Shown here in pieces: positions 6,800-8,599 of a DNA stretch of 40,750 bases. Every line of letters begins with the position of its first letter. The first letter of the stretch is position 1. The stretch lies in contig JAGPCO010000041.1 of the NCBI GenBank assembly GCA_018058095.1, positions 14,228-54,977 of the forward strand, read 5' to 3'. A program made the translations under genes and the position numbers. The notes under the pieces were generated by a model that was not told where the DNA came from, did no database searches, and was given only the letters and a program-made list of their open reading frames with translations. The stretch is from Kofleriaceae bacterium (GTDB lineage Bacteria > Myxococcota_A > Polyangia > Haliangiales > Haliangiaceae).

Positions 6800-8599
6800 T
6801 CATTGACGCGCCAGGCTGGCCACGCTGTCGTTGGTCAGGCCCGCGGCGTTGGCCTCGTCGGTGTCGACGTGCAGATCGAGCGCGTACTTGTCGCTGACCC
6901 GGACCAGCACGTCGCCGAAGGTGAGCTCGCGATCACCCTCGACCCGGAGCGTGACGAGGTCGCCGTCCCCGACGGCGAAGCGGGCGGCGTCGGTCGGGTG
7001 CATGTGGACGTGGCGGTGGGCCAGGATGACGCCGTGGTCGAGCGCGACGGTGCCGGCCGGGCCGCGCAGGGTCAGGCCCGGGGTGCCGTCGAGCTTGCCC
7101 GACTCGCGCAGCGGCGGGTTCACGCCGAGGCTGATGGCGTCGGTGCGGGCCACCTCGACCTGGGTCTCGCGGCGCAGCGGGTTGATGATGGCCACGCCGC
7201 GCAGCTCGCCCTTGGGCCCGACCAGGTCGACCGTCTCGCGGGTGACGTACTGGCCGGGCTGGGTCACGTCGCGCCGGTGGGTCAGCTCGTAGCCGGGGCC
7301 GAACAGCGCGTCGCAGTGGGCGCGCGACAGGTGGACGTGGCGCACGCTGACGCCGACCGGGATGGGGGCGCCGGCCAGCGTCTGCCGCACCGCGCTCGGG
7401 CCGGCCACCAGCGCGGTCGCCTCGCGCGCGATCATGAGCTCCTCGTTGGTGGCCACCACCAGCACGCGCGTCGGCGAGCGGGCGGCGGCGACGTCGACCA
7501 GCCCACCCTGGTCGCGCGCGCGCGCGGCCTGGTTGCGCTCGGCGTCGAGCACCACGCCCATGAAGGCGAGCGAGTCGCACAGCGCGGTGCGGACCCGGAC
7601 CGAGTGCTCGCCGATGCCGCCCGACAGCACGATGGCGTCGACGCCACCGAGCACCGCGGCGTAGGCGCCGACGTACTGCTTGAGCCGGTAGGTGAAGACG
7701 TCGATGGCCAGCCGGGCCCGCTGGTGGCCGGCGTCGGCCGCGGCTGACAGGTCGCGGAAGTCGGCGGTCAAGCCCGACAGGCCGAGCAGGCCCGACTGCT
7801 TGTTGAGCAACGTCTCGACCTCGGCCGGGGTCCGGCCGGCCGTGACCAGGAGCCCCGGCACCGCGGGGTCGAGATCACCGACCCGGGTGCCCATGACCAG
7901 GCCCTCGAGCGGGGTCATGCCCATCGACGTGTCGACCGAGCGCCCGCCATCGACGGCGCACACGCTGGCGCCGCCGCCGAGATGGCAGGTGATGAGGCGG
8001 AGCCGGGTCGGGTGGGTCTGCAGCTGCTCGGCCGCGCGCCGGGCCATGTACGCGTGAGACGGGCCGTGGAAGCCATAGCGGCGGATGCCGTGGCTCAAGT
8101 ACTCCTCGTGCGGCAGGCCGTACAGGAAGGCGTGCGGCGGCAGCTCGCCGTGGAACGCGGTGTCGAACACGGCGACGTGGTGCGCGTCCGGCAAGGCGCG
8201 CTCGGCGGCGATGATGCCGGCCAGGTTGGCCGGGTTGTGCAGCGGTGCATAACGCGCGCAGTTGGTGATGACCTGCCGGACCCCGTCGTCGATGAGGGCC
8301 GGACGGATGAGCTGCTCACCGCCGTGCACGACGCGGTGGCCGACGACGCGCAGCTCGCGGGCATCGGCCAGCGCGCCGCCCGGGCCGGTCAGGCTGGCCA
8401 GGATGGCGGCCAGCGCGGCCGCCGCGTCGGGCGCGGCCACTGGCGCCTCGTGGGCACACGGGCCCACCGTGCCGCGGTGCAGCGCCTGGGCGGTGCCGAC
8501 CCGCTCGACCTGGCCGGCCGCGAGCACGGCCTCGTGGTCCATGTCGAACAGCGTGTACTTGACCGAGGTCGAGCCGGCGTTGAGGACGAGGGCCTTCAT
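6800..8599 (-). CDS. Acetate kinase fused to PduL-type phosphate acyltransferase
   Basis: One 599-residue frame contains two enzymes. Residues 1-~398 are a complete acetate/propionate kinase: LVLNAGSTSVKYTLFD at the start, GHRVVHGGE, HNPANL, FDTAFH, RRYGFHGPSHAY, HLGGGASVCAV, GTRVGDLDP, LSGGIGEHS, ATNEELMIA. Residues ~413-590 are a PduL-type phosphotransacylase: RHVHLS (420-425) and RHVHMH (529-534) supply the zinc-binding His pairs, with VDLVGPKG, RRETQVEVARTDA, LGVNPPLRESG and LHVDTDEANAAG. Together they interconvert acetyl-CoA + Pi, acetyl-phosphate + CoA, and ATP + acetate. No stop, frameshift or start codon signal separates the parts. No microcompartment shell gene is nearby, so it is probably cytosolic. 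TAGACT sits 6 bases before the ATG (leaderless). Confidence 0.93.
   Translation of the reverse strand: MKALVLNAGSTSVKYTLFDMDHEAVLAAGQVERVGTAQALHRGTVGPCAHEAPVAAPDAAAALAAILASLTGPGGALADARELRVVGHRVVHGGEQLIRPALIDDGVRQVITNCARYAPLHNPANLAGIIAAERALPDAHHVAVFDTAFHGELPPHAFLYGLPHEEYLSHGIRRYGFHGPSHAYMARRAAEQLQTHPTRLRLITCHLGGGASVCAVDGGRSVDTSMGMTPLEGLVMGTRVGDLDPAVPGLLVTAGRTPAEVETLLNKQSGLLGLSGLTADFRDLSAAADAGHQRARLAIDVFTYRLKQYVGAYAAVLGGVDAIVLSGGIGEHSVRVRTALCDSLAFMGVVLDAERNQAARARDQGGLVDVAAARSPTRVLVVATNEELMIAREATALVAGPSAVRQTLAGAPIPVGVSVRHVHLSRAHCDALFGPGYELTHRRDVTQPGQYVTRETVDLVGPKGELRGVAIINPLRRETQVEVARTDAISLGVNPPLRESGKLDGTPGLTLRGPAGTVALDHGVILAHRHVHMHPTDAARFAVGDGDLVTLRVEGDRELTFGDVLVRVSDKYALDLHVDTDEANAAGLTNDSVASLARQ

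Follow-up and report, generated by a model that had tools for sequence, protein, structure and literature searches.

A single protein of 599 residues, encoded on the reverse strand at positions 6800-8599 of the window (i.e., the whole stretch of 40,750 nucleotides analysed here), carries an acetate kinase followed by a PduL-type phosphotransacylase, and its sequence makes it very probable that this is a soluble cytosolic bifunctional enzyme interconverting acetyl-CoA and acetate. The fusion is real but ordinary, having been reported in 2016 and being found in about a third of the genomes sampled from the class. The features of the gene are the following:

6800..8599, reverse strand: acetate kinase-PduL fusion gene, 599 amino acids, two-domain form without a cNMP-binding domain.
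7424..8596, reverse strand: acetate kinase domain, residues 2-392, from the Pfam match and the catalytic-residue alignment (N7, S10, S12, K14, R89, H121, D146, H178, H206, R239, E386).
7361..7423, reverse strand: interdomain linker, residues 393-413, of which 402-410 are predicted to be disordered in the AlphaFold model.
6836..7360, reverse strand: PduL-type phosphotransacylase domain, residues 414-588, from the Pfam match and the ligand alignment (first zinc H421/H423/E482; second zinc H530/H532/H577; phosphate R476).

The original prediction of one continuous frame holding both enzymes is borne out by the open reading frame, which starts with ATG and runs uninterrupted, and by two full-length Pfam domains. 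The first half matches Acetate_kinase (PF00871) over profile positions 1-392 of 392 with 434 bits (cut-off 22), as well as TIGR00016 with 427 bits (cut-off 293), whilst the second matches PTAC (PF06130, which together with NF011652 models the PduL phosphotransacylase family) over positions 1-175 of 176 with 241 bits. GC content by codon position is coding-like throughout both domains and the linker, and no stop codon lies between the two domains. An assembly chimera, or a frameshift at the domain junction, is very unlikely and was rejected, since 17 of the 30 genomes of the same family (the present one included) have the same one-frame fusion.

Conservation of the catalytic residues was assessed by alignment to solved structures and by comparing the protein with 65 distinct fused relatives (66 sequences in all). 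The nearest solved relatives are the acetate kinase of Methanosarcina thermophila (PDB 1g99, 1tuu) for the kinase half and a microcompartment PduL (rPduL, PDB 5cuo/5cup) for the other. The former is a full-length homologue which differs in standing alone, and its catalytic residues N7, R91, H123, D148, H180, H208, R241 and E384 (M. thermophila numbering; roles as generally known for that enzyme) are all kept here. Across the fused sequences N7, R89, H121, D146, H178, H206, G210, R239 and G330 are invariant (66/66), and S10, S12, K14 and E386 are kept in the window protein and in 60 of the 66. The residues of the acetate pocket match in the alignment too, and this suggests that the substrate is acetate and not a longer acid. 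The one departure is at the position of Asn211 in M. thermophila, occupied here by Gly209; as 26 of the 66 fused sequences also have glycine there, Asn211 would seem to be usual for acetate kinases yet not defining. In the PduL half, which aligns with rPduL over 185 residues and no gaps, all six zinc ligands (H421, H423, E482, H530, H532 and H577) are invariant in 66/66, and the phosphate-binding R476 is arginine in 63/66, the roles of these residues being those given by Erbilgin et al. (2016, PLoS Biol, PMC4784909). The earlier expectation that all active-site motifs of both enzymes would be present thus holds for every zinc ligand, for R476 and for the kinase catalytic residues, and fails at the Asn211 position; loss of PduL zinc ligands, which would have spoken against it, is not seen.

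If both halves are active, the PduL half would convert acetyl-CoA and phosphate to acetyl-phosphate, from which the acetate kinase half would yield ATP and acetate, and both steps may run in reverse. Fusing them would probably hold the two activities near each other and in constant proportion. A refinement of this explanation, rather than its opposite, is channelling, in which acetyl-phosphate made at the PduL site would reach the kinase site without being released, and this signalling metabolite would be kept from leaking. Channelling is possible, and we regard it as doubtful rather than far-fetched: acetyl-phosphate is common to both steps, single-chain fusions of the two enzymes occur in several phyla, and the idea was put forward in the passages of Erbilgin et al. 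that deal with such fusions (PMC4784909), but the fusion alone does not require it. The AlphaFold2 monomer model, built from 32 sequences, has two confident domains (mean pLDDT 89.1, pTM 0.66) joined by a linker disordered at residues 402-410 (pLDDT<50), and as such does not point to a fixed interface or a rigid tunnel; it may nevertheless be compatible with channelling in a dimeric enzyme, dimers being formed by both protein families.

Neither the fusion nor its main interpretation is new. The same passages of Erbilgin et al. (PMC4784909) state that PduL also forms part of larger proteins with several domains, most of which carry the annotation acetate kinase, and describe PduL-Ack fusions without encapsulation peptides for which channelling was proposed. 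The present protein likewise unites both enzymes in a single chain without an encapsulation peptide, with channelling as the suggested role, and shows no difference of substance, although distribution and sub-types are not given in those passages; nothing more specific on the fusion was found in the open-access literature searched. The novelty implied at the outset, which was to fall if the fusion proved common in Myxococcota, accordingly does not survive, the one-frame fusion being present in 89 of the 289 genomes sampled from the class. That the fusion suggests a service of PduL outside microcompartments, as a replacement of Pta, is likewise a point those passages already make. The present analysis adds how widely the fusion is distributed, that it falls into three clades, that it shows no association with shell genes and that a cNMP-binding sub-type exists.

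In the genome itself a second acetate kinase was not found, the only PF00871 match and the only PF06130 match both lying in the fusion. The sole PF01515 match falls in the tail of a malic enzyme, and the PTA-like tail of such enzymes is generally taken to be regulatory, not catalytic; judging by these family matches, the fusion is probably the genome's only catalytic phosphotransacylase. An AMP-forming acetyl-CoA synthetase is present, and no phosphoketolase was found in the genome as a source of acetyl-phosphate. Operon context was tried as a clue to function and rejected, as the neighbours of the gene in the window (BipA, the nuo cluster and proteins that match no Pfam family) are not conserved within its clade.

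The original prediction also had no shell genes nearby, which is true of the window; the genome, however, carries ethanolamine-type microcompartment genes on other contigs (the shell proteins BMC-H and BMC-T, EutN, aldehyde dehydrogenase and EutB at L120:7683-11064 and L121:2-2021), and the start of the aldehyde dehydrogenase resembles an encapsulation peptide when judged by eye. A search of the assembly for a standalone PduL found none; one contig starts inside a BMC gene, so that a PduL may sit in an assembly gap. Given these shell genes, the aldehyde dehydrogenase and EutB, with no PduL of their own in the assembly, the fusion might be thought to serve as phosphotransacylase of this microcompartment, but such a role is improbable. 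Among 95 relatives the fusion occurs in 28 of 63 EutN-positive and 11 of 32 EutN-negative genomes (Fisher p=0.38, a guide only, close relatives not being independent), and a link to the microcompartment was rejected for want of association across these genomes. Several relatives within the family keep EutN and EutB without any PF06130, and eight genomes have the fusion and a standalone PduL together. Among 12 loci with a non-fused PduL, nine have EutN and aldehyde dehydrogenase as neighbours, whilst no shell genes were found in the flanks of fusion genes. In addition, as had been foreseen, the PduL domain has no obvious encapsulation peptide: only the linker and the kinase precede it, without an N-terminal extension, whereas rPduL, of the same family and with the same zinc ligands and phosphate arginine, is a standalone, microcompartment-associated protein with an N-terminal encapsulation peptide of its own. 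Overall, the fusion is most readily understood as a cytosolic enzyme distinct from the microcompartment.

Slightly less probable still is that one of the halves is catalytically dead and has kept a regulatory or structural role. The kinase half is the candidate, for its mean identity to its clade is 62.5%, compared to 68.5% among the other members, and it has the replacement N211G (M. thermophila numbering); the PduL half is not more diverged (76.3 vs 76.5 among other clade members). Degeneration also seems to occur in the fusion family, since in six cNMP-bearing relatives from the Pseudomonadota the residues at S10, S12 and K14 are no longer kept. Against this, all other catalytic residues of the window protein are intact, and the genome seems to have no second acetate kinase to fall back on. 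A bifunctional enzyme interconverting acetyl-CoA and acetate is the reading retained here.

Beyond the class, the contig scan found the fusion in records labelled Hydrogenedentes, Elusimicrobiota, Nitrospirae, Chloroflexi, Syntrophaceae, Zoogloea, Pseudohongiella, Burkholderiaceae and Bdellovibrionales, the matches coming from many independent assemblies. In the acetate kinase tree the 29 cNMP-bearing fusions form one group and the two-domain forms another two (of 27 and 10), with the window protein in that of 27, made up of Myxococcota and genomes of the same class. The PduL tree gives the same three groups, except that a fusion remnant falls inside that of the window protein, and as both domain trees yield the same three clades the fusion appears to have been inherited as a unit. 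The remnant (L146:1871-2701, from genome G001 of the same genus) is a 276-residue frame in which the apparent first part of an acetate kinase is joined directly to PduL, the kinase core being missing. A single origin of the fusion was neither established nor rejected on the PduL tree (p-AU 0.104), in a weak test that counted the remnant as unfused and with a standalone AckA sample made up of best database matches only.

The cNMP-bearing group shares the AckA-PduL core and differs in an additional N-terminal cyclic-nucleotide-binding domain, which neither the window protein nor its clade has. A profile derived from six of the cNMP-bearing frames detected it in 29 of 70 fused frames, and Pfam confirmed it in six of the eight proteins scanned. 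Such three-domain proteins (L016, L039, L043, L046, L056 and L018) have open frames of about 770-930 amino acids and come from several phyla; no description of this form was found in the open-access literature searched. It is tempting to speculate, if only tentatively, that the cyclic-nucleotide-binding domain controls the acetyl-phosphate step in the same chain, the clade of the window protein being unregulated and having lost or never had the domain, gain and loss not being distinguished by the unrooted domain trees. If so, a second messenger would gate acetate flux in the cNMP-bearing fusions, which makes this sub-type a testable lead on acetyl-phosphate regulation. The six relatives with an altered kinase half (L052-L057, Zoogloea and other Pseudomonadota) have S10, S12 and K14 replaced in most or all of them, the region reading VLNVGLSQIHF in L056, and these replacements suggest a changed or lost kinase activity. 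In Pseudohongiella (L058:9939-12347), a gene for phosphoketolase, an acetyl-phosphate-producing enzyme, lies directly downstream of the fusion gene.
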